This document shows positions 35,954 to 61,300 of a DNA stretch of 64,000 bases, in pieces; positions within the stretch are counted from its first letter, which is position 1; each line of letters starts with the position of its first letter. The stretch lies in NCBI GenBank assembly GCA_027919835.1, contig JANVFP010000020.1:930001-994000 (forward strand). Reading direction: 5' to 3'. A model generated the notes under the pieces. That model saw nothing but the letters and a program-made list of their open reading frames with translations. It searched no databases and was not told the origin of the DNA. The position numbers and the translations under genes were made by a program. This DNA comes from Lentinula raphanica (taxonomy: Eukaryota > Basidiomycota > Agaricomycetes > Agaricales > Omphalotaceae).

Positions 35954-36622
35954 TAGCCTGGTAACCAAACGTTCAGCTTGCTGAACGCTTGGTAAAAGTC
36001 AGCGATATTTTGAATTGGACATTTTTTACCGACGCTTAAGATTGGTGCCTGCAAATAGAGGCCATATAAGGCAGTTACGATAAGAAATGAGATAAGATAT
36101 ACTAGATTTGGAAGCATCGCGCCGTCATTGCTGGAATCTCTCTGTTCGACTACAAGCTCTATGCTCCCTTTTACTAGCTTTTACTTATTTTTGGGGGATG
36201 TATATCTTAATTCCAAAGCTGAAAAAATCTGTGCGCTACTTTGGCTTTGAGACCATTTCTACAAATGCCTCAAATTGCATACCATCTTTCTTTTGCAGCC
36301 ACTACATAGCACACAGAGGCCCTTTGGGTGAGTTGGATGATGAATCAATACATTCTGATGATGATGACACCAGGTTATGGGATAGGCACTGGATGGTGAC
36401 TGGCAGAACCCCAGCTATTGGCAGCAAGAGGATGGAGTCAGTGGATGATAGCGGCGCGATGCTTCCAAAAGTAGTATATCTTATCTCATTTCTTATCGTA
36501 ACTGCCTTATATGGCCTCTATTTGCAGGCACCAATCTTAAGCGTCGGTAAAAAATGTCCAATTCAAAATATCGCTGACTTTTACCAAGCGTTCAGCAAGC
36601 TGAACGTTTGGTTACCAGGCTA
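35954..36622. mobile_element. Non-autonomous Mutator-like element (669 bp)
   Basis: The termini are 171-bp inverted repeats (35954-36124 and 36452-36622). They are identical over about the first 150 bp and differ at only two positions in all. Outer sequence: tagcctggtaaccaaacgtt. A 9-bp direct repeat tcctgtgcc flanks it (35945-35953 and 36623-36631). Long inverted termini with 9-bp duplications fit Mutator-like elements. The interior is only about 330 bp, so it needs a transposase from elsewhere. Near-identity of the arms implies recent movement. Confidence 0.85.
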
Positions 36623-36737: not shown

Positions 36738-36745
36738 TAGCATTG
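36738..36745. repeat. Left 8-bp target-site duplication of the KDZ element
   Basis: tagcattg abuts the left terminus and is repeated exactly at 46908-46915. Confidence 0.92.
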
Positions 36746-36986
36746 CACCTCATACGCCCATATAACGGAGTAAAAAGCCTTAGCCAAGGGGGGTACTTGG
36801 CTAAGGGTGTATCTATGGTTTTCTGTCAGTTCCCTATAGCGCAATAATTATCCAATAATTCATCTACTTATATACCGTAAAAAATCTCTCTGTGAGAGAA
36901 ATACCAGTATGTCATCACCCAGTATGGGTGCCCGATGGGCGCTATGAGCGCTCGCAAGCGGGAGACGGGAAGTGCGGCCATCATTC
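36746..36986. repeat. Left terminal inverted repeat of the KDZ element
   Basis: Pairs in inverse orientation with 46687-46907. The shared core includes gagtaaaaagccttagccaa, gggtgtatctatggttttct, ccctatagcgcaataattat and gcgggagacgggaagtgcgg. A ttagccaagg...ccttggctaa-like hairpin lies within each arm. Confidence 0.9.
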
Positions 36987-37148
36987 AGCCGATTCCCGCC
37001 TTCTTCCCGCCTTCTTCCCGCCGTCCTTTTCTCCCCTGTATTTTGAGCTTCTCCCTTAGTATCAAGTTCATGCAAGTACAGATACCATTGACTCAGTATG
37101 TTCTATAATGATTAAGATGGTTAAGAAACAGTACGATACTTGTGAATA

Positions 37149-39254
37149 CTAGTTATTTTCAACAGCATTACCCTCAACATTGAGGTTACTGCAGCCTCCA
37201 GAACCCTCTCCCCCCATAGCGTTGTCACCGTTGTTGTCGCTTTCGCCGCCTTGATCGCTGTCGTCACTGTCGTCGTTGATGAACTCGCGACTTTTGTACT
37301 GAGGAGGGAGTTGTTTAGCAATGCGCTCCCGCTGCTGTCGAGTAGAATTGTCCTTAGAAGTGGGGGCCGATTTCTTTCGACGTTTACGAGGACGATCCCT
37401 GTCCTCGTCTTCATCGTTCGTGGCCGCGACCTGACCTCCCCGTTTTCCTCTCTTCTTCCCCTTGTCGCTTCGCTCGGCTCGTTGCCTTCCAACAGTCCTA
37501 CCCTCAGCTGACTCTGATTCCATCCATTTCCTATGCTGTTCGATCTCATCATAGTTCATTGTTGCCCAGCAACACGTTCCAGACTGGAGCGCTGCATGGA
37601 GGTCTTGCAGTGTTTCTGTCTTGGAAATGTTATGAGGCTTGATGATTTCGGGGAGAGAGTCAGGAAGGCCAATGAGGCGGACGTGGTGTTGGGCAACGAT
37701 ACTGCGGTGATAGTTTTCGTAGTTCATTTTTGCATTCTTGTTGCGAAGCATGTAACCTATGGGAATCAAAGTAATCAGCCATAGCAGTATCGAACGAAGC
37801 ATAAAGACGTACGCAGGCCTGAGGCGATCATATTCGCACATTCGTTCTTGCATTCCAAGAAAGTCGGTGGCTTTGCTAAAGTCTGGTAAGGCAGTGAACT
37901 TAAGGCGACGGGAGGGCACATACAACTATGTTTTGAGTGGGCCCACAACTCCAGCAAATGAAGGAGGTCCCACATCTCAAGATTTAACTGTTGCCGAATG
38001 AAGTTTGGTGAATCCTTGCCGGTGACGAAAAAAACTGGACTGCCTTTGCAGTCACCGCTACCAGGTACCAGGAATCCAAAGCCCAACGCGCCGGTACGGA
38101 GGTGAAGCTTGACAAACTAGAAAACCAGACGAGGTTAGCACCTGTAAGAAAAAGGGAGGAAAAGTACATGCCTCGTCATGAAATCGTGCGGTCGTTGCCT
38201 GAAAATCCTTACCCGCTGCTACATTACTTGGCCGAGTACCTGACGTCGAAATGATCCTGTTCTCTTCAATCTCCTTGATGACTTCTTGAAGTTTTTCATC
38301 GGAGATCGACTGAAGTTCTTCATCGTCGGCCGCAAGGCGACTGAGAGCAGGAGCTTTGAGTCGACTACCAACAGCGAGGCCTACCATATAATTTGTTAGT
38401 TGTAAGATGCAGAAATCAAGAAGCATGCTCATACCTTCGTTAACCTCCTTGCCTTTCAGATAAATAAGAGCTTGCCCACGGCCAACAGCTTTCTTTTCCT
38501 TCATTTTCGAAACTGGGATAATCAGCTTCTTGATATAATCTGCCTCGACGCTGTACTTGGAGGCGAGTTCTTCAATAGCTTGCTCGTGCTTTTCCAGCAG
38601 GTCCACTATATCAGCCTTCAGTAGAAGGTTCTGGCGTTGTTTTGCAGCTTTGCCCTCCTGCATTGATCGAATCTGAGCTGTAGTAAGCGTTCTCTTTGGA
38701 GGACGCTGTTGAACCTCCTGAGTTGGAAGTAGAGGGTTTCGTTCTGCATGAGTTGTTGGCCGGTACGTTGGGAAAGGAGCGCTGCGGTCGAGCATTTTAT
38801 CCAGCGACGATGAAGAGGTCAAACGTGACAACTCCGGACTCTCCGATGTTGGAACCACTTCGGCTGATGACGACAACGAGGTGGGTGGAGGTGACAGGTG
38901 CGGAGTACCCGTTGTTGGAAGCACTTTGGCTGATGACGACGACGACGAGGTGAGTGGAGGTGACAGGTGCGGAGTACCCATTGTTGGAAGCACTTCGGCT
39001 GACGACGACGAGGAGGGGAACAAAGGTGACAGGTCCGTAGTCCCCGACGTTGGAAGTGGATGCTGAATACCGTCAGGAGGCAACGGCGCATTGTCGTTTT
39101 CAAGACCGGGAAAGGGCAGAAATGAACCACCGAAATCGAGGCCATTGAACGCAGGATCGTTGAAGTCGAATTGGATACCCCAGAAAGGATCATTGGGGTC
39201 AGCAAAAACTTCACCACTAGCAAAGTTGTTGGCAGGAAAAAATGAGTCGTTCAT
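37149..39254 (-). CDS. KDZ-element accessory protein (about 646 aa)
   Basis: Four exons: 39254-38435, 38380-38172, 38116-37813 and 37756-37149. They sum to 647 codons in frame. The N-terminus (MNDSFFPANNF) is acidic and aromatic, followed by three to four tandem Ser-rich units of the type LPTxGTPHLSPPxTS-SSSAEV. A charged, coiled-coil-like region comes next (LLEKHEQAIEELASKY, ISDEKLQEVIKEIEENR). A globular part holds HLRTGALGFGFLVPGSGDC and YHRSIVAQHHVRLIGLPDS, and the tail is basic then acidic (RPRKRRKKS, NDDSDDSDQGG). The tail suggests a nuclear protein. Intron 2 seems to use a GC donor (gcatgt); otherwise the frame shifts there. I do not know the family. Its place in the element suggests a transposition cofactor or transcription regulator. 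Confidence 0.65.
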
Positions 39255-39853
39255 GCTCAGGAAATTTAGGGAAGCAACGTCCAGATTGAGAGCACTTGGA
39301 CGTGCAAGTTTTGTGAGCAGAGCCAGAGAGAATTCATTGGAAATATATACTGAAAATCCATTAAACGAGTCTTGAAATTGTAGCAAACAACGCGATCGCG
39401 ACCACAAACGCGCCCTGCACAAATCACGTTGCGGAGAACTAGATCGAATCATATGGTCGCGCGTGACGGTGAGGAGCTATGATCTATAGAGATATCAGAG
39501 TCCAACGGGTCCAGCGATAGGTCCTACGGGCATTGATATTGAGGTCGGTAGGGTCTGAGTGTTGATATTGAGGCTGAGTGAGGTTTGGGTAGGGTTGAAA
39601 TGATGCGATGTCACAGCTGTGACAGGTGACGCTGTTTCTATCGGACCGCAAAAACCAGGCGAAAACCAAGAAATAAATCACTATCAAGTGAGTCGTATAT
39701 TTCCATCTTTCTTTCTTCCCTCCATCACCAAGCTTCTCTTAGTGTTTCTCAAGGAATGGCTTGTAAGTTTGATGCTTTCAACGTTCCTTGTTTCTTGCTC
39801 ATTGCGACTTTCTAACGATTATAGCTTTAAACTCAAGCTCAGATCGAGTTATC

Positions 39854-40966
39854 ATGATCTCAGATAGCGAGGATGAAGATGGTAGGTCGATCTTGCTTGT
39901 CAGTGCATTCTTACTGACTCCTGCTATTCCAGATGAACTGGCTCGAGCGATTTCCTCAATTTCTTGTGAGTGACAGTAAATTTCTGCTCTATCATTCTAA
40001 CTAATTCTTGGTCCTGACAAACGAAGTAAATCGAGCATCCCCGACGAAAGGAACAACCCAAGCGTTGCATGCAGTGAAAGGAGCACCTCCAGCCAAACGG
40101 ACAACTGAAGCATTGAAGATGCAAGACCATGTCATGGCTAAAATGTACGTAGAACAATCTCTAAGACACCCACCTTCTGATCGATTTCTCAACTATGTGA
40201 GGTTAGATTTCATGACCCGTCGGCGGTGTATGTCTTTCACCAGAGACAAGATGACCTTCATGCAGGGCCACCTCCACAGTACTCAGAGCCGGCGGAGCCA
40301 GGTTCGCCATCTGAGCTAGTTACGCCGTTGGAATCAATAGCGCCGTCGGATTCTCAGAGTCAATCTGATGCGAGTCCAGCTCCACCCTCTGTTGTGGCCC
40401 TAACTGCACCGCCCCCAGTTTACCCACCGCCACTTCGCCACCTTTGACTCCCCGTCACCGTCGTGGGCAGTTCAACGCATATGTCGTATATTCAGGCAAC
40501 GAGGCTCAAGTTTATAGAAGATGGTAAGCCCTCCGGGATTGATTGGACCTGTACTCAACGACCATTATAGGACTAAGGTCAATCAACTGAAGCAACAGGA
40601 TCCCAGCCTTGTGTTCAAGGGTTTTCCCACTTGGGAACTTGCACAGGCTTCGTGGGACGCAGCAAGGTCGACGGGCGTGGTAAGTGCACTACAAAGAGGA
40701 ATGGGACGAGGATATTGGGTGGTCATTCAAGGCGTCCACCCATCCATCTATCACAGCCCGTAGGTTTTTTGGTAAAACTTGTTACAACACCGTTGCTAAT
40801 ATCCTTTCACTCTAGCTGGGATGCACTTCGAGACGGTCTTGAATGGGGTGGGGGGTTTTTGACTGCGTTCTCCAGTAAGGCTGAAGCTCAAGATTATTGG
40901 AACACGCAGTCAAATGCTAGTCCATGCCGCATTATTTCTACTGCACGACCTGGATTTTTTGATTAG
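39854..40966 (+). CDS. Protein with two RNase H1 N-terminal (hybrid-binding/viroplasmin-type) domains, 260 aa
   Basis: Seven short exons (39854-39881, 39933-39965, 40027-40144, 40207-40417, 40471-40523, 40571-40759, 40816-40966) have canonical introns and total 261 codons. After a Pro/Ser-rich N-terminal half come two copies of a small domain. The first (from residue 131) has FNAYVVYSGNEAQVYRRW and VFKGFPTWELAQASW; the second has GYWVVIQGVHPSIYHS, then EWGGGFLTAFSSKAEAQDYW. This is the pattern of the RNase H1 N-terminal/caulimovirus viroplasmin domain, which binds RNA:DNA hybrids or double-stranded RNA. No RNase H catalytic domain follows. It lies inside the KDZ element between the accessory and TET/JBP-like genes. 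A role in R-loops or RNA at the element is inferred, not shown. Confidence 0.75.
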
Positions 40967-41672
40967 TGTACATGAGTATGAGCTTTGTAAAAACCCTTGA
41001 ATTCGATTTATGTTCTGCCCTTGCTTTCATGAAAAAAAACTGTGTGTGTGCAACTCTAAGAAACCATATTCTTCGTCGCATTTGTGTTAGGCGCCCATCT
41101 CATGTATCCCAGAAGGGTAAATTAACGCCCAGCGAGCTTTGTTTCCCGGTGGTTCTTACCTCGGCTATTGCATCTGGCACCGTATTTCTCAAATTTTCAT
41201 GCAACGACTTCATCAATAACCTGAAAGAGTACAGGAACTCTCAGCTACGTTATGAAGATAATTAACTGTATTTTTTTGAATGCCTCATTCAACAATCACC
41301 CCTTGGAACTCATAAAAGGTGTAAAAAGTTGACACAAAATCTGTAGTCAGTATATACAGCAAGCGCAGTGTTCTCGAATATGAAAGATGCTGTATATAGT
41401 CCAGAGAGCCAAAGAAAAAAATTGCAGCTCATGTATACAACACCCTCTTGCATGATAGGCTATGACATTTTCAACAATTTCACCTTATACTCTCTTCAGA
41501 AGACGGACCATTGAGATTTAGCAAATTTCCTTTGGCGAGCAGTATTGGATCGAATGAACTCAGATTTATAAACGAACTTGATTTTTTGTGATTTTCTAAG
41601 GTTGTACAACTCACTCGAAATTGCTACACCTCGAATGTATGCTTGGCATGTGTCCTAGGAAGTTATCTGAGT
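40967..41672. other. Non-coding spacer inside the KDZ element
   Basis: Convergent 3' ends of the hybrid-binding gene (+) and the dioxygenase gene (-). A 99-codon plus-strand frame (40966-41265) shows no known motif and is probably spurious. Confidence 0.55.
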
Positions 41673-43219
41673 TCAATCGATGATACCAGCCTTCAGTTCG
41701 TCTATCGTACTGAAGACATCTAATGCTTTTTGCCAACGCCCTGGTCTCTCCTTCAGCATTCTATCGTAAGCATCAGGGTCTTCGAATGCAAATGATTCCT
41801 CAGTGCGTCCTCCGTATTCCAACCAGCCATGAATTCCACCAGCAGTGTACTGAGTGAAAGATACTCGTTTATCCCCTTTCTGTACGGGAATGTTAGAATG
41901 CCGGAAGAGGGCAGAAGGTAGGAGAATCGTCGATGCAGGTGGAAAGTCGAAGATGAGTCGAAGGTCCCAGATGATGAGTTGACCGCCTTTAGTTGGATCG
42001 AAGGGTCCGCCAGCAGTAATCGCGCACGAACCAGGTGCGTTCCTCGTATCGCGATGGATGTAAGTCCATGTATCTGGACCGAAGTTGGCAGTGCAGCAAC
42101 TGAATACACTCCCTTCGATGTTTCCATCGAACTCGGGGATCTTCTCCTTCAGCTGTTTGTTACGGCGTTGATACTCTCCGTATGCCTTGGGAAACCAAAG
42201 ACCAAAGGTTGCTAATAAGAGGCGTCGGTTGAGAGTAGAGGTTCTGTTGGAGGAATCAACTCACCGCTCTGGTAGGCAGCAATTCGTCGGACGCATTTAT
42301 TCTTGATGAATTCTTCCATCAACTCTTGACGTTCGCCACCAAGCCGCATAGGTCTAGGCTGACCTTTGCCATAGGACCAACCGCAGCTTGCAGAGGCAAA
42401 CTTACCCCGCCTCGAGTTGAGCTCGGCTTTGGTCCAGTCAGTGGTTGAGCCGACTTCAAGCATCAGATCGGCCATAGTTTCGGCATCTTGGCGATATGTA
42501 GGGTCATTTGGTTGACCAACGGCAGAGAGTACGACGCGCTTTTCCGCATCAAGCACAGAAATAGGGACCCTGAAAATAAGCTGTTGAGTATCCCAATAGA
42601 AAGGGGCTCTCGTTTAACGTTACGCACTTTCCCTTCCACGGCACATGGGTAAAGCCCTGGCTTTTCAAAGTCTCCAGCTTTCTTTTCACTTTGGCGCCGT
42701 AGTAAGAACAATCGGTTGCCACCCAGCCTCCCTCTGCAATAGGGAGCTCCTCGCTCACTAAAGCCGTTTGAATAGGCTCTGCCACGAGAACTTGCTGTTC
42801 GAATGCGCGTCCGAATCCACGAGGGTGTCCGAGAGTCACCTTCTTTTCGGCACGTCGTTTGGCGCGTCGATGGTTATTTGCAGATTGTCCTTTTCTCTTT
42901 GAGGTCTCGCTCTCAGCAAACAGAGTAGGGTCCGGAGGAGGGGTCTCGTCTTCAGGCTCGAACTTTCGTTTGAGGCTCTTGGAATTGGATACGAAGCTTT
43001 GCGGCTCTTCGAGGATGGGGTTATCTAAATCCTCAATGGACTGTTTGGCCAGGGCGTTCATGTCGACTGCGAAGCCCAGCTGAAGTATGGCCAAATCATT
43101 TGGATCATCCTCAGCGAGGATCTCAATGTAAGGACGGCCAGACCGCGTCTAACGCATCATTAGCATATCGTCTGAGATCGACTTTTCAAACTTACCGTCC
43201 TTGAGAATCCTGAAGCCAT
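41673..43219 (-). CDS. TET/JBP-like 2-oxoglutarate/Fe(II) dioxygenase, 462 aa
   Basis: Exons 43219-43196, 43148-42628, 42569-42265 and 42211-41673 join in frame (463 codons, introns of 47, 58 and 53 nt). The C-terminal exon carries the catalytic fold: ANFGPDTWTYIHRDTRN with the iron ligands His336 and Asp338, FDPTKGGQLIIWDLRLIFDF, and RHSNIPVQKGDKRVSFTQYT with the third ligand His388 and Arg399 for 2-oxoglutarate. This order, with KGGxLIxWDLxL between the motifs, is what I know from the mushroom TET/JBP-type expansion. TET/JBP enzymes oxidise 5-methylcytosine or thymine in DNA. The N-terminal part (SGRPYIEILAEDDPNDLA, a basic RRAKRRAEKK patch) is probably regulatory. It is divergent from the transposase gene and inside the same transposon. 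No key residue is missing. Substrate is inferred. Confidence 0.8.
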
Positions 43220-43599
43220 TCAAACCTGAGTTCGAAGAACGAGAGTTGTTAGTGCTACATGTATTGCTCTGGGACCACCTCCAACTCCTTCGGTTATCGC
43301 GTTTGCCATCGAACGCGCCGTCTCCCCACATCCAGGGGTGAACGTGACAAGCGCGACGCGTTTGAAAGCTCGGCGTCCGAAGGAGATGAAGCAATAGAGT
43401 ACTCACCGACGGCTGTGAAACGTTGGATATTGAACACTATTGAACGTTGGATATTGAACGTTGATGGCCGGCTCGAGGGTTGAAGAGAAAGAAAGAGTTG
43501 TTGTTCAACCAACAATTGAGGGTTTTGTGTGGTTGTCACGTGATACAGCATGACCGTGTTAGTGACCGTGTCATCTTTTTTTCAGCCATTGTCCTCACC
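43220..43599. promoter_or_regulatory. Divergent promoter between dioxygenase and KDZ transposase
   Basis: 380 bp separate the two start codons. It contains a 24-bp-spaced direct repeat, cgttggatattgaac at 43421-43435 and 43445-43459, followed by a third partial gaacgttgat. Such iterated sites in a shared promoter could bind a self-encoded regulator; this is inference. An exon-like ORF seen here on the minus strand (43294-43551) is not needed for either gene. Confidence 0.45.
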
Positions 43600-46582
43600 A
43601 TGCCTTCAGCCTCCAAACGCAAAGGTTATAGAAGCTCGGGATCAAGCAAACGCCAGCGATTTGCTCTAGGTGCAGAGAGCATGGCCGACCTTCTTAGAAA
43701 CCCACTTAAATCCTACTCCCAAACTCAAATCACCAAACTCAAGTCCAGACAACAGATGCCGATCCCTTCCAACGTTCAATTTGGCAACGACGACGGTGAC
43801 GACGACGATTCGTGCGGATATGGTACCTCTCACGCTTGCGACGATAGGATGGAGGACGTTTTAGAAGGACGAGAGGCGTTAGAGCACAGTCACATTGGTG
43901 ACTTCGAGGACATTGCGGCAGGTTATTTTGACACAGATGCTGGGAAAAGGTATGTCCGTTATCCTCTCAGAGTGTTAGGCATCGAGTAAGATCAAACTTC
44001 AGGCAGAAGAAAGACTTCAGGACACGACGAGATCGCACTCATCGCCGCAACATACGCTTCGCTCCCCAAATGGAATCTATGACTGACGCATACATGGGTT
44101 GGTATGCGGAGTCTGGGCACGACGGTCACCTTGCTGGAATTCCTCCTGAGCTTATCGGCGCTCATACAAGCCAAACAGTCACCGTAGTTGATATCTTCAG
44201 TGAGTCTCTACAATTCATTTCAATTCCACCTAATTGTGTGCCCTAGGGTCTTATTACGCCAACGTTCAAGGTTCAGAGAATGACCCTTTCTGGTCGTACA
44301 GCCTCGTTCGATGCGGTCTTTGGCCATGCTCCCCCGGTCTTGCTACCGTCGCCGTCACCACAAGAACCTTGGAGCTCTTCCGGACACAATCCCTTCGCTG
44401 CCCCCGCCTCTCTATTCAAGCTTTCGTTAAATCGCTATGTGATCTGCAAGGGGTCCCTTTCAAACCATACCTATGCGAACAGTTCTCCATATCCTTCGAT
44501 CTATACCTTGATGTCAGTCTTCGGACCCGCACCCGCGTGATGAAGGCGCTTGGACGCGACTCGGATAACTGGAGGCTCATGAATACGTGCCCTTGCTGCA
44601 TGTATCGTGTAGAAGGAGAACCCAAGCTCCGTTTTTCGATTATTCTCGGGACCATGGACGGCAATAACTCACTCAAACGGCTTTATCGAAAAGACGCGAG
44701 TGATGAGGAAGGGATACCTGAGCAGTCGAAGGAGCGGACAGATTTGCGGTTCGGAGGCGGGGACTACTATCTATCCAGAGAGGAGGTTGACAAATGGTCA
44801 AGAGATGCTCTGCAAGAGGTTGTCGAACCAACTGGTGAGGCAGAGGAGTCGAGTCCCTGCGAGGAGAGGTGGAAGAACCTGAGTGAAGCTACAACAGCCA
44901 AGATGTGGGGAGTGTTTGAAGAGACAGGAATCTTTCTGTCCTTATGCCGCCACGGTTTCATTCTTCTCATTGCAGACATGGTGAGGAGTGGGGAGCTAGC
45001 AAAGTATCCACTTGCCATCGTCGATCGGTTGCTTGACGTGTTCGGAAGAGATCTTGGCATGGGGTACGATATCGGATGTGGATTCAAAGCCACGATCAAG
45101 AAGACCCCCTTGCAACCAAAAGCTGAAGAGCTCGGCTACACATCCCTAGTTGGGGCGTTTCATGGACATGCGCATTCCCGACTCTGTCAGACCTCACACC
45201 TTACGACGTACATTCCTGGGCTCGGACTCAAGCATCTTGAACAGTGCGAATCCTTCTTTTCTGAATCAAACGAACTTGCCTCCTCCACTCGCCATATGTC
45301 CACCTTCCATCGCCAACAAGCCATCGCCAGATTCAGCTACCACCACAACAACTTCGAAACTTATGCCCGCCTCAGCAAAATACTTATCGACAAGTATAAG
45401 CAAGCGTTGGAGATACAACAATCTGCTCCCGCGCTTGCTCATACAATGAACGACCTGGGTATATCATCGACGGACGTCTTCTCTCAATGGCTCAAGCAGG
45501 AGCAGGAATACCTTCAAGGCCTCAAGAAAGAGCCGCCGGAGGAGACGCTACAGATGGAATACTTTAGGAAGCTCGAAAAGTATACAACGGCTCAGAACAA
45601 GGTCAACGACCCCAATCGGGAGTGGATCACATACACACCCGATTCTATTCTCTCTGCCCTCGGTCGAAATGACCAGACCCAACATATAGAAGCCCGACGA
45701 CGGCATGCAATCGAGAATCGAGATGACCTGAAGGCTGAAGTGCAGGCATTGGAGATGAGGCTGGCTATCAAGACCCGGTGGACACCTGATTCAGACGAGT
45801 GGAGGGTTGCGAAGGATCTAGTTCACAAGGCGAAGTACCAGCGTGCTTTGGATAAGCTGGAAGGGCTGGTCGTTGCCCGACTGTTCGAGCTCTCGAAGAT
45901 GAACATGTCTCATACAGGCTACAAGCTCCGGAAACACATCGCCGACTCTCTCAAGGCTCGTTCGCAAGCTATTCGTACGGCGATCACAGCCTTCAACGAC
46001 GCCGCTTCTGAACTGGGCAGACCTACTCTTTCATGGGAGGAGGTTGTCGAATACTCATTCCTATCGGACTTCGACCTCCTTCGCGATGCTCGCTGTGACG
46101 TTTGGGGTGAGCTCTGGGCACAGCCTGCAGGCCGCCTTGCTATGGATCAGTACCACAAACTTGTCCATGCAGAGGAAGAAATCCTTCGACTGAACAAAGA
46201 AATCCTCTCACTAGTCACCTACATTCAAGAAGAATCAGCCTTTCTCTTACTCAAGGAGGATGAGGTACGGTCGTCAGATCCTCTTCTTGCTGCCCAGATC
46301 CGACGTTATGCTTGGGAACGTGGACGATGCAACGATATTCATATGTTCAGGCTCAGGAAGCTCGAAAAGATGAAGGGTTTTACGGGTTCATTGTCAGCAG
46401 GAAGAGGTCATCTCTACTCACAGATACAGGGAGCTCCAATGAACATACAACCAAATGCAATCAACGACCACACTACCGACGAAGATGCACCGCCAATCGA
46501 AGGCGACGACGACGACGACGAAGACGAAGATGTTGTGTTGAACGAGATGGCCGCAGTGATTGGGATTGCTATAGATAAGTAA
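43600..46582 (+). CDS. KDZ transposase, 960 aa, intact
   Basis: Three exons (43600-43949, 44003-44199, 44247-46582) give 961 codons. The start MPSASKRKGYRSSGSSKR is basic. Exons 2-3 show the CxC1-like N-terminal part of KDZ proteins (TVTVVDIF, then CPRLSIQAFVKSLCDLQGVP). The Kyakuja-Dileera-Zisupton transposase core follows: NTCPCCMYRVEGEP, MDGNNSLKR with Asp320, YYLSREEVDKW, MGYDIGCGFK with Asp457, HGHAHSRLCQ, and LEQCESFFSESNELASSTRHM with Glu514/517. These acidic residues fit a DDE-type RNase H-fold nuclease, but the exact triad is inferred. The second half is largely helical, and the tail is strongly acidic. It would excise and insert the 10-kb element. No frameshift or stop is seen. Confidence 0.9.
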
Positions 46583-46686
46583 CGTTGAGTACGACGTGTT
46601 GTCGCACCTGTATAATACATGATATACATATATTCAGGTAAACAGGCGGGGGCGGGATTATGGATACGGGATAGGCAGGAATCGGG

Positions 46687-46907
46687 CAAATGATGGCCGC
46701 ACTTCCCGTCTCCCGCTCTCAAGCGCTCCGAGTACCCATATTGGGTGATAACGTATCAGCCATTCTCATTTTCACGGCGTATAAGTACATGATTTATTGG
46801 ATAATTATTGCGCTATAGGGAATTGACAGAAAACCATAGATACACCCTAAGCCAAGTACCCCCCCTTGGCTAAGGCTTTTTACTCTGTTATATAGGCGTA
46901 TGAGGTG
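46687..46907. repeat. Right terminal inverted repeat of the KDZ element
   Basis: Inverse partner of 36746-36986. It ends ...ggcgtatgaggtg at 46907. Confidence 0.9.
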
Positions 46908-46915
46908 TAGCATTG
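46908..46915. repeat. Right 8-bp target-site duplication of the KDZ element
   Basis: tagcattg, identical to 36738-36745. Confidence 0.92.
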
Positions 46916-51131: not shown

Positions 51132-51640
51132 TGTTGAAATTAGATTAGCGCTTAAGTCTATCTAATCATGATATCATGTGCGCTTATTTACTAAGCATAG
51201 CACTGACTATTAATGAGTGATCGACATGCAGCTATCATGTATTTCTTAGCCCTTTAACAATATTCTATTGTTATTTCTCATGCAACATACAGCCTTACTG
51301 CTGTATTTCATTTCAGCTTTATGCTCTCTTAATGCTATTCGCTCTACAGCTTTTGCAGTGTGCTAGACGAACTACATACACATGTTATATGTATTATTCT
51401 TTACACCTATGATCGTACTTTACTCATCTTACATGCTGTATACATGATTCATTATTATTCATCATTGTCATAGGGTGTTAACTCTTCTAGTATAAATACT
51501 GTAGATGTTCCTCTGTAACAATAAGCCTCTTATTCAAGAGTTTCTATCATCTCAACTTCGCTATCTGAAGTCTCCTCAGCAAGTTTATACTCGGTGAGTA
51601 AAAGCATCAACCTGTCGTAAGATTGATTGCTGTTTAAACA
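51132..51640 (+). repeat. LTR 1
   Basis: Begins tgttgaaattagattagcgc and ends ttgattgctgtttaaaca (TG...CA). It is 509 bp with a TATA box (tataaata) at 51491-51498, so transcription should start near 51520-51530. Confidence 0.93.
51491..51498 (+). promoter_or_regulatory. TATA box in LTR 1
   Basis: tataaata, 150 bp from the LTR end. The same site recurs in LTR 2 and LTR 3 (6084-bp steps). In LTR 3 it would fire outward into the host sequence. Confidence 0.65.
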
Positions 51641-51652
51641 GGTTATGGGCCC
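51641..51652 (+). other. Primer-binding site, half-tRNA(iMet) type, copy 1
   Basis: ggttatgggccc directly follows the LTR. It is complementary to the anticodon-arm sequence gggcccataacc of initiator-Met tRNA rather than to a tRNA 3' end. Priming by a 5' half of tRNA(iMet) is known for Drosophila copia and yeast Ty5. The repeat is at 57725-57736. Confidence 0.7.
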
Positions 51653-52287
51653 CGGTTAGCTCAACACTGGTCGTTACTCCACTGTGTTATCTTACGAGTG
51701 GTTGATCGTGTTCACCAACGCTTTCCTAATGCTCATGACCGAGTATTAAAAGTGTTTGATGTTGTGCTTGTGGTTTTGGTATAAGGTAATCCCTTAGATC
51801 GTCTTTATTCCATCCATCCGAGGGCTCTGTCTGTAATATAAATGACATCCCATTGAATAAAACTAACAGTAGTATACACAGGCAGTCCACATGAACGAGC
51901 TTTGCATTCTCACCTTTAATGGTGGTTTGTTAGAGGTCCGAACCCTCTTCCCAGGTAGACTTCTGCCAGAGTGTGAATAATCAAAAGCACTTCTGCGTAG
52001 GCTGGGCATTTGCGAACATGTGTGGCTTTCTTGGCCTCCGTATTACAGTACTGTTACACCATGTGTCTTAAGTCCCTTTTTACGCTACTAGTCTATTTGT
52101 GCTTAATATGTGCGTCTTCTGGACTGCACTATTAATGAACGATAGATGAATAGCTTTCAAATGACACATAGGATTTGTATATAGTTTTACATATATACCG
52201 AGTCTGATAGGAATGATCAGATCGGAGATGGATACAAGATGCGATCAACACCGTGATTTAAGTCAATGAGTAAAAACCAATGTTGAT
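51653..52287 (+). other. Copia leader (untranslated), copy 1
   Basis: About 635 bp between primer-binding site and polyprotein, AT-rich with many stops in all frames. It is the expected place of packaging signals, which cannot be identified by eye. The same leader is at 57737-58371. Confidence 0.6.
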
Positions 52288-55200
52288 ATGATCGAGGTTC
52301 ATAACTTGAAGGAACGTTCTAATCAAACTGTTCTTCTTCTTATAGAACTCTATTCATACAACATGTCCAACACTGTTGCCTTTGCCATTCCTGAACTCAA
52401 CGGCTCCAACTACAGCGAATGGGAGTCTACCATGATTGCCTATCTCCGCTTCTCTAGAGCTTGGGGTGTAGTTTCTGGTCGAGATGAAAGACCTAAAGAA
52501 ACTTATTCAGGAACTGGAGCGGACCGTGTAGAGACTACATCTGCTGAACTCAAGAAAGAGATTCGTGAGTGGGATGAAAAAGATGACTCAGCCATTGGTA
52601 TTATTACTCTCAAACTCCCGAAGGGTCTCCGAGAGAGTATGGTCAGAGACTCTGCTCAGGAAACATGGGACGAGATTAAAACACAATATGGTACACCTCG
52701 CGCTGCTGGCATCTTTGGAATTTTCAAAGAGGCAATCAACTTTGAGTTGAGAGAAGATGCTGACCCTGCAATGCCTATCGCCAGTTTGCGGTCAATCTTT
52801 ACTCGACTTGATGATTTTGGTCTCAAACTCACGGATCAGATTCAAGCCATGATTCTTCTTGCCGCCTTGCCTCGTTCATGGGATAATCTTGCCATGACTA
52901 TGCTGTCTCAATATGATGCGAGATCATTAAATCTCAATAACATCGCATCTGGCATTCAAGACGAGTATTCCCGTCGAACTTCCATTAAAAACTCGGAATC
53001 TTCTCTTACTGCCCGGCTCTCTGGTATTAAACGCTATGGTGATCATAATTCACAATGGCGAGACCAGAAGAAACAAAAAGGAGGAGCGCCCAAGTCTGGG
53101 CAGCAGACTCCTTCAGCACCTGCGCCGCAGAATAAGAACAAGAAACCCCGACGTGGAAAAGGCAAAGGCAAAGGAAAAGCGAATCAATCAGCACATGAAT
53201 CTGTTCAGCAACCTGATTCATCGGTGGCTCAATTCAGTTCCGCATATGTCGTCAATATACCTCATGCATCTTCTTCTACCCTCAAACTCGATGATCTCCC
53301 CAATTATGAGGATGAAGAAGAGGACCCTATTCTTGCTAACATGAAGCAGGAAGAGGAGGAGGTTAGATTGACATGGGCAGATGAAATGTACGATATGGAG
53401 ATTACAGGTGAAGGTGACGAGCGCCTTATGTACTGGCAAGTTCCTCTTTCTAAATTCAGGAGAAATACTATTAACAAATTGCACCGGACTAAACAGATGT
53501 TCTATGACACCATGCGATCATTCTCAAGGTCGAAAGACCAGCATGTATATAATATGAACTCTGTAGTTTCTGATCTCCTCGATGGAGATAATAAAATATA
53601 TTCTGATGTGCATTATGTCAATACTCCTAAGTTTGAGAACTCGCAAGAACAGTCTTTAAAAGACTTTTGGCTGCTTGACTCCGGTGCTTCTGCACACTTC
53701 ACTCCTCACATTGAGGACTTTGCTCAATATAGAGAACTTGAAACTCCAATTCCAGTACAAACTGCCGACATAGGCTCTAAAACCCTAATCAAAGGGGTTG
53801 GAACTGTATTTATTAAGCACCATAATGGTCTCAATTATACTCATACGACTAAATTATATCCGGTGTTTTACCAACCGCAATGCACACATCGCCTTTTATC
53901 TGTTGGTTTATTAAACCGACAAGGCTGCTTTGCAGTCTCTGATGAGGATAAAACTCAAATTCGTCGGAAATCTGATCGGAAAGTTTTAATGACATGTGCT
54001 CCTAAATCTTCTGGGGAAAATCTTCATTGGCTATCCTCTTCAATTGTAACTCCAGAAAGAGGTCTAGTCAATAAAATACCCCTAGATTACGACACATGGC
54101 ATAATCGCTTAGGTCATCCCAGTAAAGTAGTCTTACGCAATACACAACCCCATGTCAAAGGACTTCCCAAGATTTCTATACCTTCTGAAGATGCACCTTG
54201 CAAAGGTTGTGCTCTTGGAAAAGAAAAATCTCAATCCTACCCTAAGTCTGAGAAACGAGCATCGGAACCGTTAGATCTCATCCATACTGATATCAAAGAG
54301 ATACCTACTGTCTCTTATCATAAATTCAAGTATGTGATCACGTTTCTAGATGATTGTTCATCTCATGCTGTTTCAATAAAACTACGACGAAAATCAGAAG
54401 CCTTGCAATCTTTTAAGGATTTTAAATCCTGGGCTGAAAAGCAAACAGGCCGAAAGATTAAATGTCTACGTTTTGATCGAGGGGGAGAATTTCTTTCACA
54501 AGAATTCGAAACATTCTTGAAACAAGAAGGAATAGAAACTCATAAGTCGTCCGCCCATGTTCATCAACAGAATGGTCGTGCGGAACGAATAAATCGCACC
54601 ATGATGGAAAAATCTGAAGCAATGCGTCATCATGCATGCTGTCCAGAATCCTGGTGGGAATTTTCGTATAACACTGCAATGCATGTGTATAATCGCACAC
54701 CAATTCAAAGATTGAACTGGAAGACCCCAATTGAAGTTTTCTTCGGAAAAATACCTGATGTTTCTTATTTCAGAGTATTTGGATGTGCTGCTTATGTCTT
54801 TATTCATCCTGAAAAAAGGAAAAATAAACAAGCACCGCATTCCGAATTGATGATCTTCATTGGTTATGACAAGGGTACAAAAGGATATATGTTCATGCGT
54901 AATGACAACTCTATCTATTTTGCACCACAAGCAACTTTCTACGAACAATGGTTTCCACGATGCAAAGATAGTACAAAACCCTCTGAACCTGTCCTATCTA
55001 ATCCCAGAGAAAACCATGATAAACGACCAACGAATGGTATTGATGCAGATCTACCATTTGATCCGGATGAAAATCCACATAACGTTCCTTTTACATTGCC
55101 CGATGAGGATTCACGAGATCCACCAAATCTACCTGGTGATAATGATCAAAATGATGATCATTCTGATCAAGAATCAGATAATGGTTCCCCACCTTATCAC

Positions 55201-57171
55201 TCATCTCGAGCACCATCTCCTCGGACTCCCACACCACCTCCCGAAAATGATAGACCTCCTTCACCAGTTCGTCCAAATCCATTTAGTTATGATCCAGACG
55301 AAGTGGCTGAATGGAAACGATTACATCCTCGTAGAATTCCTAAACCAATTAACCGTCCTGATATGGTACCGTCATCTGGAACACATAGTGGTTGGCGTCA
55401 AATACGTCCATTACCTCGTAGAAATGAAGTCTACGAACCACGTGTTCCTCCTGTACCAGAAGTTCGGATGCGTTCACCATCTCAGGAATACGATATGGAT
55501 GTAAACATATCTAGACTCATTCAGGAAGGGGGAGTAGAATTTATAAATCATTTGCTTGCACAATCGGATGTTATTCCTGAAAGTTTCTTAGACATGAATC
55601 CAAGGGATATTCTTACCAAAGATAATCCTAACTCATGGAATTCACAAAGAGACTATCGTCATTTGCCCCCTGACATACGGGCTAAATGGAATAATGCTTG
55701 CAAAGAGGAGATTGATGGTTTGAAAGAACGTCATGTATATGAGGAAGTTACACTACCTCAGGGTCGTAAACCTATCAAATCCAGATGGGTATTTAACCGA
55801 AAAAATGATGGTCGATATAAAGCCCGACTTGTCGCAAAAGGTTTTTCTCAAGTACAAGGGATAGATTATAACGAGTTGTTTTCGCCTGTAGCGCGATTTG
55901 AAACCGTTAGAATTCTTCTTGCTTTAGCCGCCCTAGAAGACTGGGAAATCCAGGCTCTTGACGTCAAACAGGCTTTTTTATATGGCAAGCTTGATGAAGA
56001 AATCTATATGGAACAACCCGAAGGCTTCGTTAAGGACAAAACCAAAGTTTGGAGGTTACACCGAGCGCTTTACGGTCTAAAACAAGCAAGCTTATCCTGG
56101 TGGAAGGAATGTAATGCTTCCATGGGAAAACTAGGATTCAAGCGCTGTGTTTCTGACGCTGGTGTATATGTCTTCAAAGAGAATGGGCAAACCGTAATTG
56201 CTGTAATCTATGTTGATGATGCTTTATTTATGGGATCAGACAAAGATCTCATTATGAAGAAGAAGCATGAGTTCATGAATGTATGGGAATGTCGTGATTT
56301 GGGAGAACCAAAAGAATTTCTTGGTATACGCATATTCCGCGACCGTAAAAAGAAAATCTTAAAATTGGATCAAGGAGCTTATCTTGATAAAGTCATATCT
56401 CGTTTTGGCATGACAAATGCTAAAAAAGCTCAAACTCCTCTTCCTACATCATGGGTTCCTCATGCAAATACTAAACCAGTAAATGCTGAACTTCGTCGAC
56501 GCTTTCAAAGTGTCATTGGATCTTTGTTATATCTAATGCTTGGCACACGTCCTGATATTGCTTATGCAGTAATCAAGTTAAGTCAGTATTCTGCTAATCC
56601 TAGCAAAGATCATCTTGCAAAAGCGCTATACATAATCCGATATCTTTTATACACTCAGGATTATGCGCTTGTCTATGATGGATCTTCGCAAGAAGGATTT
56701 ATTGCATATTCTGATTCTGACTGGGCATCTGATTCAAATGATCGTAAATCCCATACTGGGATGATTGTGACATTTGCAACAGGTTCAGTAAGCTGGACAA
56801 GTCACAAACAAAAAACTGTTGCGTTATCATCCACTGAAGCTGAATATATGGCTGCTTCTGACACTAGTCGACAGTTGATGTGGATCAAAACCTTATTTAG
56901 TGAAATAGGTTTTAAACTCGGATCAATGCCTTTGATGGTTGATAATCAAGGTTCTTCATTCCTTGCGTCAAATCCTGTGCAGGAACGTCGAACTAAACAT
57001 ATTGATATTCGCTATCATTTTATTCGAGAAAAAGTAGAAGCTGGAATAATCGATCTCTACTATATTCAAACTGAGGACAATGTTGCAGATCTTCTTACAA
57101 AGAATCTAGCACTTGTCAAGTTTGTAAAGCTAAGAAATCGTTTAGGCTTATTTTTTAAACACATCCATTAA
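52288..57171 (+). CDS. Copia gag-pol polyprotein, copy 1
   Basis: 1627 codons; the more likely start is Met26 (52363, MSNTVAFAIPELNGSNYSEW). Order: UBN2-type gag; a lysine-rich segment (KPRRGKGKGKGKA) where a CCHC zinc knuckle would be expected but is absent; protease (LLDSGAS, Asp464); GAG-pre-integrase (WHNRLGHPS...CKGCALGK); integrase with Asp668, Asp730 and Glu766 (D-x35-E); a Pro/Asp-rich linker; reverse transcriptase (KARLVAKGFSQVQGIDY, YVDD at 1308-1311); RNase H (YSDSDWASD, STEAEYMA). Protease-integrase-RT order is diagnostic of Ty1/copia. No stop or frameshift, so coding capacity is complete. The single frame implies processing by its own protease. Confidence 0.95.
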   Translation: MIEVHNLKERSNQTVLLLIELYSYNMSNTVAFAIPELNGSNYSEWESTMIAYLRFSRAWGVVSGRDERPKETYSGTGADRVETTSAELKKEIREWDEKDDSAIGIITLKLPKGLRESMVRDSAQETWDEIKTQYGTPRAAGIFGIFKEAINFELREDADPAMPIASLRSIFTRLDDFGLKLTDQIQAMILLAALPRSWDNLAMTMLSQYDARSLNLNNIASGIQDEYSRRTSIKNSESSLTARLSGIKRYGDHNSQWRDQKKQKGGAPKSGQQTPSAPAPQNKNKKPRRGKGKGKGKANQSAHESVQQPDSSVAQFSSAYVVNIPHASSSTLKLDDLPNYEDEEEDPILANMKQEEEEVRLTWADEMYDMEITGEGDERLMYWQVPLSKFRRNTINKLHRTKQMFYDTMRSFSRSKDQHVYNMNSVVSDLLDGDNKIYSDVHYVNTPKFENSQEQSLKDFWLLDSGASAHFTPHIEDFAQYRELETPIPVQTADIGSKTLIKGVGTVFIKHHNGLNYTHTTKLYPVFYQPQCTHRLLSVGLLNRQGCFAVSDEDKTQIRRKSDRKVLMTCAPKSSGENLHWLSSSIVTPERGLVNKIPLDYDTWHNRLGHPSKVVLRNTQPHVKGLPKISIPSEDAPCKGCALGKEKSQSYPKSEKRASEPLDLIHTDIKEIPTVSYHKFKYVITFLDDCSSHAVSIKLRRKSEALQSFKDFKSWAEKQTGRKIKCLRFDRGGEFLSQEFETFLKQEGIETHKSSAHVHQQNGRAERINRTMMEKSEAMRHHACCPESWWEFSYNTAMHVYNRTPIQRLNWKTPIEVFFGKIPDVSYFRVFGCAAYVFIHPEKRKNKQAPHSELMIFIGYDKGTKGYMFMRNDNSIYFAPQATFYEQWFPRCKDSTKPSEPVLSNPRENHDKRPTNGIDADLPFDPDENPHNVPFTLPDEDSRDPPNLPGDNDQNDDHSDQESDNGSPPYHSSRAPSPRTPTPPPENDRPPSPVRPNPFSYDPDEVAEWKRLHPRRIPKPINRPDMVPSSGTHSGWRQIRPLPRRNEVYEPRVPPVPEVRMRSPSQEYDMDVNISRLIQEGGVEFINHLLAQSDVIPESFLDMNPRDILTKDNPNSWNSQRDYRHLPPDIRAKWNNACKEEIDGLKERHVYEEVTLPQGRKPIKSRWVFNRKNDGRYKARLVAKGFSQVQGIDYNELFSPVARFETVRILLALAALEDWEIQALDVKQAFLYGKLDEEIYMEQPEGFVKDKTKVWRLHRALYGLKQASLSWWKECNASMGKLGFKRCVSDAGVYVFKENGQTVIAVIYVDDALFMGSDKDLIMKKKHEFMNVWECRDLGEPKEFLGIRIFRDRKKKILKLDQGAYLDKVISRFGMTNAKKAQTPLPTSWVPHANTKPVNAELRRRFQSVIGSLLYLMLGTRPDIAYAVIKLSQYSANPSKDHLAKALYIIRYLLYTQDYALVYDGSSQEGFIAYSDSDWASDSNDRKSHTGMIVTFATGSVSWTSHKQKTVALSSTEAEYMAASDTSRQLMWIKTLFSEIGFKLGSMPLMVDNQGSSFLASNPVQERRTKHIDIRYHFIREKVEAGIIDLYYIQTEDNVADLLTKNLALVKFVKLRNRLGLFFKHIH

Positions 57172-57207
57172 TCTATCATGATTCAATGATTCGCTAGGTC
57201 TTTAGCG

Positions 57208-57215
57208 AAGGGGAG
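57208..57215 (+). other. Polypurine tract, copy 1
   Basis: aaggggag directly before LTR 2; this is where plus-strand DNA synthesis would be primed. Repeated at 63292-63299. Confidence 0.75.
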
Positions 57216-57724
57216 TGTTGAAATTAGATTAGCGCTTAAGTCTATCTAATCATGATATCATGTGCGCTTATTTACTAAGCATAGCACTGACTATTAATGA
57301 GTGATCGACATGCAGCTATCATGTATTTCTTAGCCCTTTAACAATATTCTATTGTTATTTCTCATGCAACATACAGCCTTACTGCTGTATTTCATTTCAG
57401 CTTTATGCTCTCTTAATGCTATTCGCTCTACAGCTTTTGCAGTGTGCTAGACGAACTACATACACATGTTATATGTATTATTCTTTACACCTATGATCGT
57501 ACTTTACTCATCTTACATGCTGTATACATGATTCATTATTATTCATCATTGTCATAGGGTGTTAACTCTTCTAGTATAAATACTGTAGATGTTCCTCTGT
57601 AACAATAAGCCTCTTATTCAAGAGTTTCTATCATCTCAACTTCGCTATCTGAAGTCTCCTCAGCAAGTTTATACTCGGTGAGTAAAAGCATCAACCTGTC
57701 GTAAGATTGATTGCTGTTTAAACA
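57216..57724 (+). repeat. LTR 2 (shared middle LTR)
   Basis: 509 bp, same termini as LTR 1. It serves as 3' LTR of copy 1 and 5' LTR of copy 2. Confidence 0.93.
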
Positions 57725-57736
57725 GGTTATGGGCCC
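57725..57736 (+). other. Primer-binding site, half-tRNA(iMet) type, copy 2
   Basis: ggttatgggccc directly after LTR 2, identical to 51641-51652. Confidence 0.7.
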
Positions 57737-58371
57737 CGGTTAGCTCAACACTGGTCGTTACTCCACTGTGTTATCTTACGAGTGGTTGATCGTGTTCACC
57801 AACGCTTTCCTAATGCTCATGACCGAGTATTAAAAGTGTTTGATGTTGTGCTTGTGGTTTTGGTATAAGGTAATCCCTTAGATCGTCTTTATTCCATCCA
57901 TCCGAGGGCTCTGTCTGTAATATAAATGACATCCCATTGAATAAAACTAACAGTAGTATACACAGGCAGTCCACATGAACGAGCTTTGCATTCTCACCTT
58001 TAATGGTGGTTTGTTAGAGGTCCGAACCCTCTTCCCAGGTAGACTTCTGCCAGAGTGTGAATAATCAAAAGCACTTCTGCGTAGGCTGGGCATTTGCGAA
58101 CATGTGTGGCTTTCTTGGCCTCCGTATTACAGTACTGTTACACCATGTGTCTTAAGTCCCTTTTTACGCTACTAGTCTATTTGTGCTTAATATGTGCGTC
58201 TTCTGGACTGCACTATTAATGAACGATAGATGAATAGCTTTCAAATGACACATAGGATTTGTATATAGTTTTACATATATACCGAGTCTGATAGGAATGA
58301 TCAGATCGGAGATGGATACAAGATGCGATCAACACCGTGATTTAAGTCAATGAGTAAAAACCAATGTTGAT
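57737..58371 (+). other. Copia leader (untranslated), copy 2
   Basis: Same sequence as the leader of copy 1 at a 6084-bp offset. Confidence 0.6.
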
Positions 58372-61300
58372 ATGATCGAGGTTCATAACTTGAAGGAACG
58401 TTCTAATCAAACTGTTCTTCTTCTTATAGAACTCTATTCATACAACATGTCCAACACTGTTGCCTTTGCCATTCCTGAACTCAACGGCTCCAACTACAGC
58501 GAATGGGAGTCTACCATGATTGCCTATCTCCGCTTCTCTAGAGCTTGGGGTGTAGTTTCTGGTCGAGATGAAAGACCTAAAGAAACTTATTCAGGAACTG
58601 GAGCGGACCGTGTAGAGACTACATCTGCTGAACTCAAGAAAGAGATTCGTGAGTGGGATGAAAAAGATGACTCAGCCATTGGTATTATTACTCTCAAACT
58701 CCCGAAGGGTCTCCGAGAGAGTATGGTCAGAGACTCTGCTCAGGAAACATGGGACGAGATTAAAACACAATATGGTACACCTCGCGCTGCTGGCATCTTT
58801 GGAATTTTCAAAGAGGCAATCAACTTTGAGTTGAGAGAAGATGCTGACCCTGCAATGCCTATCGCCAGTTTGCGGTCAATCTTTACTCGACTTGATGATT
58901 TTGGTCTCAAACTCACGGATCAGATTCAAGCCATGATTCTTCTTGCCGCCTTGCCTCGTTCATGGGATAATCTTGCCATGACTATGCTGTCTCAATATGA
59001 TGCGAGATCATTAAATCTCAATAACATCGCATCTGGCATTCAAGACGAGTATTCCCGTCGAACTTCCATTAAAAACTCGGAATCTTCTCTTACTGCCCGG
59101 CTCTCTGGTATTAAACGCTATGGTGATCATAATTCACAATGGCGAGACCAGAAGAAACAAAAAGGAGGAGCGCCCAAGTCTGGGCAGCAGACTCCTTCAG
59201 CACCTGCGCCGCAGAATAAGAACAAGAAACCCCGACGTGGAAAAGGCAAAGGCAAAGGAAAAGCGAATCAATCAGCACATGAATCTGTTCAGCAACCTGA
59301 TTCATCGGTGGCTCAATTCAGTTCCGCATATGTCGTCAATATACCTCATGCATCTTCTTCTACCCTCAAACTCGATGATCTCCCCAATTATGAGGATGAA
59401 GAAGAGGACCCTATTCTTGCTAACATGAAGCAGGAAGAGGAGGAGGTTAGATTGACATGGGCAGATGAAATGTACGATATGGAGATTACAGGTGAAGGTG
59501 ACGAGCGCCTTATGTACTGGCAAGTTCCTCTTTCTAAATTCAGGAGAAATACTATTAACAAATTGCACCGGACTAAACAGATGTTCTATGACACCATGCG
59601 ATCATTCTCAAGGTCGAAAGACCAGCATGTATATAATATGAACTCTGTAGTTTCTGATCTCCTCGATGGAGATAATAAAATATATTCTGATGTGCATTAT
59701 GTCAATACTCCTAAGTTTGAGAACTCGCAAGAACAGTCTTTAAAAGACTTTTGGCTGCTTGACTCCGGTGCTTCTGCACACTTCACTCCTCACATTGAGG
59801 ACTTTGCTCAATATAGAGAACTTGAAACTCCAATTCCAGTACAAACTGCCGACATAGGCTCTAAAACCCTAATCAAAGGGGTTGGAACTGTATTTATTAA
59901 GCACCATAATGGTCTCAATTATACTCATACGACTAAATTATATCCGGTGTTTTACCAACCGCAATGCACACATCGCCTTTTATCTGTTGGTTTATTAAAC
60001 CGACAAGGCTGCTTTGCAGTCTCTGATGAGGATAAAACTCAAATTCGTCGGAAATCTGATCGGAAAGTTTTAATGACATGTGCTCCTAAATCTTCTGGGG
60101 AAAATCTTCATTGGCTATCCTCTTCAATTGTAACTCCAGAAAGAGGTCTAGTCAATAAAATACCCCTAGATTACGACACATGGCATAATCGCTTAGGTCA
60201 TCCCAGTAAAGTAGTCTTACGCAATACACAACCCCATGTCAAAGGACTTCCCAAGATTTCTATACCTTCTGAAGATGCACCTTGCAAAGGTTGTGCTCTT
60301 GGAAAAGAAAAATCTCAATCCTACCCTAAGTCTGAGAAACGAGCATCGGAACCGTTAGATCTCATCCATACTGATATCAAAGAGATACCTACTGTCTCTT
60401 ATCATAAATTCAAGTATGTGATCACGTTTCTAGATGATTGTTCATCTCATGCTGTTTCAATAAAACTACGACGAAAATCAGAAGCCTTGCAATCTTTTAA
60501 GGATTTTAAATCCTGGGCTGAAAAGCAAACAGGCCGAAAGATTAAATGTCTACGTTTTGATCGAGGGGGAGAATTTCTTTCACAAGAATTCGAAACATTC
60601 TTGAAACAAGAAGGAATAGAAACTCATAAGTCGTCCGCCCATGTTCATCAACAGAATGGTCGTGCGGAACGAATAAATCGCACCATGATGGAAAAATCTG
60701 AAGCAATGCGTCATCATGCATGCTGTCCAGAATCCTGGTGGGAATTTTCGTATAACACTGCAATGCATGTGTATAATCGCACACCAATTCAAAGATTGAA
60801 CTGGAAGACCCCAATTGAAGTTTTCTTCGGAAAAATACCTGATGTTTCTTATTTCAGAGTATTTGGATGTGCTGCTTATGTCTTTATTCATCCTGAAAAA
60901 AGGAAAAATAAACAAGCACCGCATTCCGAATTGATGATCTTCATTGGTTATGACAAGGGTACAAAAGGATATATGTTCATGCGTAATGACAACTCTATCT
61001 ATTTTGCACCACAAGCAACTTTCTACGAACAATGGTTTCCACGATGCAAAGATAGTACAAAACCCTCTGAACCTGTCCTATCTAATCCCAGAGAAAACCA
61101 TGATAAACGACCAACGAATGGTATTGATGCAGATCTACCATTTGATCCGGATGAAAATCCACATAACGTTCCTTTTACATTGCCCGATGAGGATTCACGA
61201 GATCCACCAAATCTACCTGGTGATAATGATCAAAATGATGATCATTCTGATCAAGAATCAGATAATGGTTCCCCACCTTATCACTCATCTCGAGCACCAT

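Follow-up and report, generated by a model that had tools for sequence, protein, structure and literature searches.

A probable multi-gene KDZ-type cut-and-paste transposon of Lentinula raphanica with TET/JBP-like, hybrid-binding-domain and accessory genes

In the genome of Lentinula raphanica, a wild relative of shiitake, a KDZ transposase gene and three further genes lie together between inverted ends. Do the four genes belong to one mobile element, and is this copy still able to move? The locus was examined within a window of 64,000 nt, which corresponds to bases 930001-994000 of contig C20 (assembly of 49.06 Mb in 75 contigs). An earlier note on this window had described an apparently intact, possibly autonomous KDZ transposon whose full gene set may form a defined module. 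Expansions of TET/JBP genes have reportedly been treated together with KDZ transposons by Iyer et al. in 2014 (PNAS).

The element, designated A, is a DNA transposon with inverted ends that spans window positions 36746-46907 (10,162 bp, exactly the length first noted). Its termini, CACCTCATACGCC... at 36746 and ...GGCGTATGAGGTG at 46907, start with CA and finish with TG. Left (36746-37041, forward strand) and right (46632-46907, reverse strand) terminal inverted repeats (TIRs) align over 296 and 276 bp, respectively, with 239 identical columns out of 304; in the outer 137 positions, 9 mismatches and one gap column separate them. Score of the TIR alignment is 172.5, while the maximum among 100 shuffles of one arm is 27.0. 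Comparison of the flanks reveals a target site duplication (TSD), TAGCATTG, at 36738-36745 and 46908-46915. The two copies match in 8 of 8 positions, which bears out the perfect duplication noted before.

Own-genome search was performed with a query consisting of the 300-bp flanks of A fused with one TSD copy. It returned 19 rows: two true flanks, 16 matches within the left 190 bases, all of them copies of a neighbouring repeat, and a single match crossing the junction. The latter (C20:684713-685084) is located on the same contig as A and bridges the junction with only one TAGCATTG, embedded in a 19-base identical stretch, ATGTACATAGCATTGAGCA. Overall identity of this alignment is 67% (289 of 433 columns, with gaps in 95 columns). 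The site is a paralogous rather than allelic empty site. In the vicinity of A, an element of about 670 bp with 171-bp inverted arms (98.8% identity) occupies window positions 35954-36622 and ends 124 bp left of A; its arrangement recurs at C49:95118-95784, and its arms are found elsewhere as well.

Genes of A were spliced by hand and compared with those of a sister element, B1 (see below). The KDZ transposase gene (43600-46582, forward strand; exons 43600-43949, 44003-44199 and 44247-46582) encodes 960 aa. Residues 316-550 match the KDZ domain PF18758 with 256.1 bits (cut-off 26.6; E 3.5e-76), and a match to CxC2 (PF18803) is weak (E 0.14). Together with TIRs, TSD and empty site, this supports the view that the element is a KDZ transposon, as had been noted. 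The TET/JBP-like dioxygenase gene (41673-43219, reverse strand) comprises four exons (43196-43219, 42628-43148, 42265-42569, 41673-42211) and encodes 462 aa. Transposase and TET frames are open, with no internal stops. The HBD gene (39756-40966, forward strand), which codes for the RNase H1 N-terminal, hybrid-binding domain PF01693, yields 272 aa in an eight-exon model. The accessory gene, ACC (37149-39254, reverse strand), yields 630 aa from five exons (38435-39254, 38172-38380, 37924-38116, 37813-37875, 37149-37756). Lengths of transposase and TET protein are thus precisely those given in the earlier note, whereas its values for the HBD (260 aa) and accessory (646 aa) proteins differ from those of our models.

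Of the two profile assignments foreseen, the KDZ one is well above its threshold, but the TET protein of A matches Tet_JBP (PF12851) below cut-off (18.1 versus 34.9 bits; E 0.0017). Matches to PF12851 at E <= 1 were obtained for 11 of 25 rows of the TET alignment, the best having E 0.00014, and the domain is precomputed for two (P0028 and P0043) of at least 78 database TET relatives. In TET/JBP dioxygenases, the HxD...H residues are ligands of Fe(II) and an arginine binds 2OG. All of these are kept in A (H336, D338, H388 and R399), in columns that are at least 90% conserved in the 25-row alignment with 24 relatives. The available text of PMC12730594 assigns the same roles to these residues. 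The motif in A is HRD, and the HxE of PE-type TET (PMC12730594) is absent. Sequence search with single, 2-row and 25-row TET profiles matched no TET structure among solved structures, and residues G331 and D337 of CcTET are therefore not placeable on the protein of A.

The HBD protein exceeds the PF01693 cut-off of 21 bits both in A (34.1 bits) and in B1 (39.8 bits), and five of six database HBD proteins match this domain at E <= 1. Pfam reports one domain; comparison of the two halves of the protein by hhalign gave probability 1.8 and E 0.027, with 23% identity over 44 columns. ACC of A contains no Pfam domain, and among 12 proteins of the ACC family, including P0007 (model of the B1 gene) and P0008 (model of the A gene), the best match has E 0.074 and nothing of note appeared. 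By eye, part of ACC resembles a helix-turn-helix. Predicted structures are of low confidence (mean pLDDT 42.5 for ACC, 12 rows, and 36.4 for HBD, 6 rows). At E <= 0.001, and with models of the present elements counted in, database relatives of HBD number six, all from L. raphanica. Those of ACC number at least 12 (Lentinula, Rhodocollybia and Gymnopus) and those of TET at least 78, with named sources among mushroom-forming fungi; these searches scored the candidates sharing most words with the query (7,999 for ACC, 7,996 for TET).

We wondered if the same gene set also occurs at other sites of the genome. Two sister elements are present on contig C36: B1 (C36:98533-108488, 9,956 bp) and B2 (C36:118845-128791, 9,947 bp). 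Both share the four genes of A in the same order and on the same strands. B1 and B2 are 99.88% identical, differing by one substitution and three indels (1, 1 and 9 bp); their match stops at the element ends, the flanks are different, and each copy has its own 8-bp TSD (CTAGAAAG in B1, TTCTTGTC in B2). Near-identity at two sites suggests that a close relative of A has probably moved recently. All four genes of B1 are open, and P0007 is identical to B1 ACC along its full length. In B2, one of the 1-bp indels shortens a run of C by one base and shifts the TET frame; this could be a true mutation or a fault of the assembly. Joined flanks of B2 retrieved no empty site in the own-genome search. Identity between A and B1 in aligned DNA is 72.9%, and no full copy nearer to A than B1 and B2 was found among the own-genome matches listed. 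The second copy that the earlier note had called for thus exists as a sister family, accompanied by the paralogous empty site, but not as a full copy of exactly A's family among these matches.

For 11 elements, both ends were located; 9 of these carry a perfect 8-bp TSD, namely A, B1, B2 and six elements of 1,682-1,778 bp (L015-L020, on C36, C4, C9, C29, C1 and C24); L014 and L022 lack it. L015-L020 are of near-constant length and share the outer ~120 bp of A, and three of them (L015, L017 and L019) are internally related and partly palindromic. Stop-free stretches in the eight small elements reach 114 codons at most, which makes these elements probably non-autonomous. A transposase at C7:45807-48159 is decayed and contains stops. 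C42:80698-82084 contains a TET gene whose pieces are 49-73% identical to that of A; among the matches listed, no KDZ or transposase gene occurs on the same contig, and it is perhaps a solo copy.

An alternative would be that TET, HBD and ACC belong to the host and neighbour a transposase by coincidence, the inverted repeats around them having arisen by chance. Little support comes from the 62 of 86 listed TET loci that are more than 8 kb away from any listed KDZ gene. The TSD, the empty site and two near-identical copies elsewhere, in which the match ends at the same element ends, speak against a host locus, and owing to the empty site and the B1/B2 copies we rejected this explanation as next to impossible. 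Perfect TSDs, the empty site, the KDZ domain, the B1/B2 pair with the same genes and the small elements that share these ends but lack long reading frames all back a transposon. We consider it likely that A is a multi-gene KDZ-type cut-and-paste transposon of L. raphanica, in which the roles of TET, HBD and ACC are putative. In this reading, the KDZ transposase would bind the inverted ends, excise the element and join it to a target with an 8-bp stagger. The TET/JBP-like enzyme would oxidise 5-methylcytosine on the element and in this way counter silencing by the host. Judging by its domain, the HBD protein may bind RNA:DNA hybrids or double-stranded RNA at the element, which could protect its transcription or interfere with RNA-directed silencing. 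ACC might be a DNA-binding or transposase-assisting subunit, although this is a weak guess.

Is copy A itself intact? Compared with B1, its HBD gene carries two additional nucleotides in a proline-rich stretch, which changes the frame. At the position of this break, B1 (P0001), P0002, P0005 and P0006 read through PATP...(Y/F)NAYVVYSG; the database model P0004 omits the stretch and is uninformative on the frame. The HBD gene of A is open only if an extra intron of 53 nt (40418-40470, GTTTAC...CAG) with a weak donor, GTTTAC, is spliced; such splicing would restore the frame and retain the hybrid-binding domain. Further, the second intron of ACC has a GC donor in A (adjoining 38172) and GT in B1. 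Database models of the two A genes, P0003 (HBD) and P0008 (ACC), differ from our hand models around the HBD break and the GC donor. A may no longer produce all four proteins, and it is probably not fully intact, contrary to the first impression of the locus. These two features, the broken HBD frame and the GC donor, also make the autonomy proposed for A doubtful, and B1 appears to be a better candidate for the autonomous element. In the outer 137 TIR positions, A has 9 mismatches, compared with one each in B1 and B2. Such divergence suggests that A was probably inserted earlier than B1, and copy A looks older than its sisters.

These observations lead to the question whether A is a dead relic, unable to move alone, with leftover frames and with proteins supplied in trans only by B1/B2, or by none. 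The HBD frame break, the GC donor and the diverged TIRs fit this, as does the absence of a nearer full copy of A among the matches listed; on the other hand, the transposase (960 aa) and TET (462 aa) frames are open, and both ends and TSD are perfect. That A is such a relic seems quite possible, albeit somewhat doubtful, to us.

To characterize constraint on the transposon genes, A and B1 were compared pairwise (NG86). dN/dS equals 0.078 for transposase (dN 0.102, dS 1.311), 0.080 for TET (dN 0.119, dS 1.478), 0.157 for ACC (dN 0.186, dS 1.184) and 0.144 for HBD (dN 0.231, dS 1.605; model with the extra intron); these values are rough, as synonymous divergence is close to saturation (dS 1.2-1.6) and the ratio for HBD depends on the extra intron. 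Even as rough estimates, the four ratios lie far below 1, and selection seems to have protected each of the four genes in the comparison of families A and B. From this protection it follows that the four genes probably work together, either in jumping or in escape from silencing.

The distribution of the four genes in the whole genome was examined using loci merged from own-genome searches with ACC, HBD, TET, transposase, PF01693 and PF18758; scored candidates were 92 of 125 in the TET search and 48 of 128 in the transposase search, and part of 162 matches was covered for PF18758. This resulted in at least 113 KDZ/transposase, at least 86 TET, 13 ACC and 17 HBD loci. With A, B1 and B2 excluded, a listed KDZ locus lies no more than 12.5 kb from 12 of 14 HBD and 9 of 10 ACC loci, and no more than 5 kb from 8 of 14 and 2 of 10, respectively, the distance limits having been chosen post hoc after viewing the list of loci, which are not independent of each other. 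When HBD loci that are likely copies are collapsed, 7 of 9 remain within 12.5 kb and 4 of 9 within 5 kb of KDZ. Chance adjacency of HBD and ACC with KDZ was rejected under a uniform chance model, with the caveats of post hoc limits, of likely copies among the HBD loci and of the low ACC count at 5 kb. As for orientation, HBD and transposase share a strand at each of the 12 loci within 12.5 kb (15 of 15 with A, B1 and B2), and ACC lies opposite to the transposase in 11 of 12 loci overall (8 of 9 without A, B1 and B2). Among the matches listed, 24 of the 86 TET loci have a KDZ locus no farther than 8 kb away; in 21 of the 24, TET is on the opposite strand.

The order ACC-HBD-TET-transposase is found in A, B1 and B2 and, judging from coordinates alone, also at C20:221909-234907. 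Two relatives have partial sets. C1:617796-628479 contains ACC, HBD and transposase; no TET match was found there among the 92 of 125 scored candidates, and the DNA between HBD and transposase (619534-622686) was inspected. C2:1665831-1673715 contains ACC, TET and transposase, with no HBD match better than E 0.027, and the ends of this distant element were not locatable. The HBD relative P0005, used as query, retrieved no regions beyond those on C1, C20 and C36. Relatives with no detectable TET or HBD suggest that the wider group does not depend strictly on either gene. The proposal that the full set is a defined module is supported in part: identical genes, order and strands in B1, B2 and (by coordinates) C20:221909-234907, together with low dN/dS, favour it, while undetected TET on C1 and HBD on C2 do not.

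The same partial sets bear on the possibility that TET, HBD and ACC are loose passengers of a KDZ transposon, captured, decaying and without a role in transposition. Undetected TET at the C1 locus (among scored candidates) and HBD at the C2 locus, possible lesions in HBD and ACC of A and the shifted TET frame of B2 would fit passengers. Yet the A-B1 comparison puts dN/dS of each of the four genes at 0.08-0.16; order and strands are the same in the three elements A, B1 and B2 and, going by coordinates, at C20:221909-234907; and each of the 12 non-query HBD loci with a KDZ locus no more than 12.5 kb away has HBD on the strand of the transposase. We regard mere passengers as unlikely, and prefer a transposon whose four genes cooperate.

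At five of the HBD loci (C1:284061, C26:43855, C27:105778, C28:407378 and C4:1712976), a KDZ gene is located 1.9-4.2 kb away, and no TET was found within 11 kb among the 92 of 125 scored candidates. HBD could thus be a wider partner of KDZ than TET. One may speculate, at rather low confidence, that KDZ transposons of mushrooms carry a conserved anti-silencing kit, composed of TET, an upstream stand-alone HBD on the transposase strand that would guard RNA:DNA hybrids or double-stranded RNA, and a new antiparallel accessory family.

How does A relate to known elements? The connection of TET/JBP genes with KDZ, pointed out in the earlier note, is already published: complete TET-bearing Kyakuja and Zisupton elements of Agaricomycetes were reported by Kojima in 2025 (PMC12730594), where the gene linkage of Iyer et al. 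2014 is also retold. As in those elements, a KDZ transposase and a TET/JBP gene are joined in A within one mushroom element. The Kyakuja families that this paper introduces have a 7-bp TSD and CA..TG termini and lack TIRs, whereas Zisupton has an 8-bp TSD and TIRs, according to its available text. A, B1 and B2 agree with Kyakuja in their CA/TG ends but differ in their 8-bp TSDs and in TIRs aligning over 259-296 bp. The 8-bp TSD and TIRs of A match Zisupton, the comparison being one of ends; the ends of A fit Zisupton, not Kyakuja as described there. The role of TET against silencing is, in the same available text, a proposal without experimental validation. The words "RNase H" and "hybrid" are absent from the main text of PMC12730594 (term search).

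In Cryptococcus neoformans, KDZ1, KDZ2 and KDZ3 (~11, ~9.2 and ~10 kb) are mobile; their TIRs measure 241, 139 and 169 bp, and insertion into a reporter gene produced TSDs of 8 bp (KDZ1) or 4-8 bp (KDZ2, KDZ3), according to the available portion of PMC12810828. A resembles them in its size of ~10 kb, long TIRs and 8-bp TSD. That portion names KDZ and CxC1 domains, and TET, HBD or an accessory gene do not appear in it; furthermore, KDZ1-3 are experimentally mobile, while A is known from sequence alone. In KDZ-type transposons of Pleurotus ostreatus, a CxC2 region precedes the transposase (PMC7641404, as available); A resembles them in its KDZ transposase, for the CxC2 region of which there is the weak PF18803 match described above, and the available text of that paper does not mention TET, HBD or an accessory gene. 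In the open-access literature searched, a scope that does not extend to the supplements of PMC12730594 or to Iyer et al. 2014, no paper was found that connects HBD or the present accessory family with KDZ elements. The family of A is a joining of TET cargo with long-TIR KDZ features, to which HBD and ACC are added. HBD and ACC would be two further genes that selection appears to have kept in these KDZ elements. The B1/B2 pair, open B1, defined ends, the empty site of A and the small elements offer material for an assay of transposition and demethylation.

Other repeats and genes are present in the window. Two head-to-tail Copia-type LTR elements (51132-63809) contain identical 1,627-aa frames at 52288-57171 and 58372-63255, the first of which includes RVT_2 and a copia-type gag. 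They share LTRs (a 510-bp repeat present in three identical copies, at 51132, 57216 and 63300) and are 100% identical over 6,594 bp; either recombination into a tandem array or duplication by the assembly would account for the pair. A fragment of Copia-type gag lies at 941-2650 (reverse strand). A 923-aa frame at 11898-14669 (reverse strand) matches Transposase_21 (PF02992) weakly, with a score under the cut-off, and is perhaps another DNA transposon gene. Finally, a 602-aa protein with DUF6535 and ankyrin repeats is encoded at 5726-7534 (forward strand).
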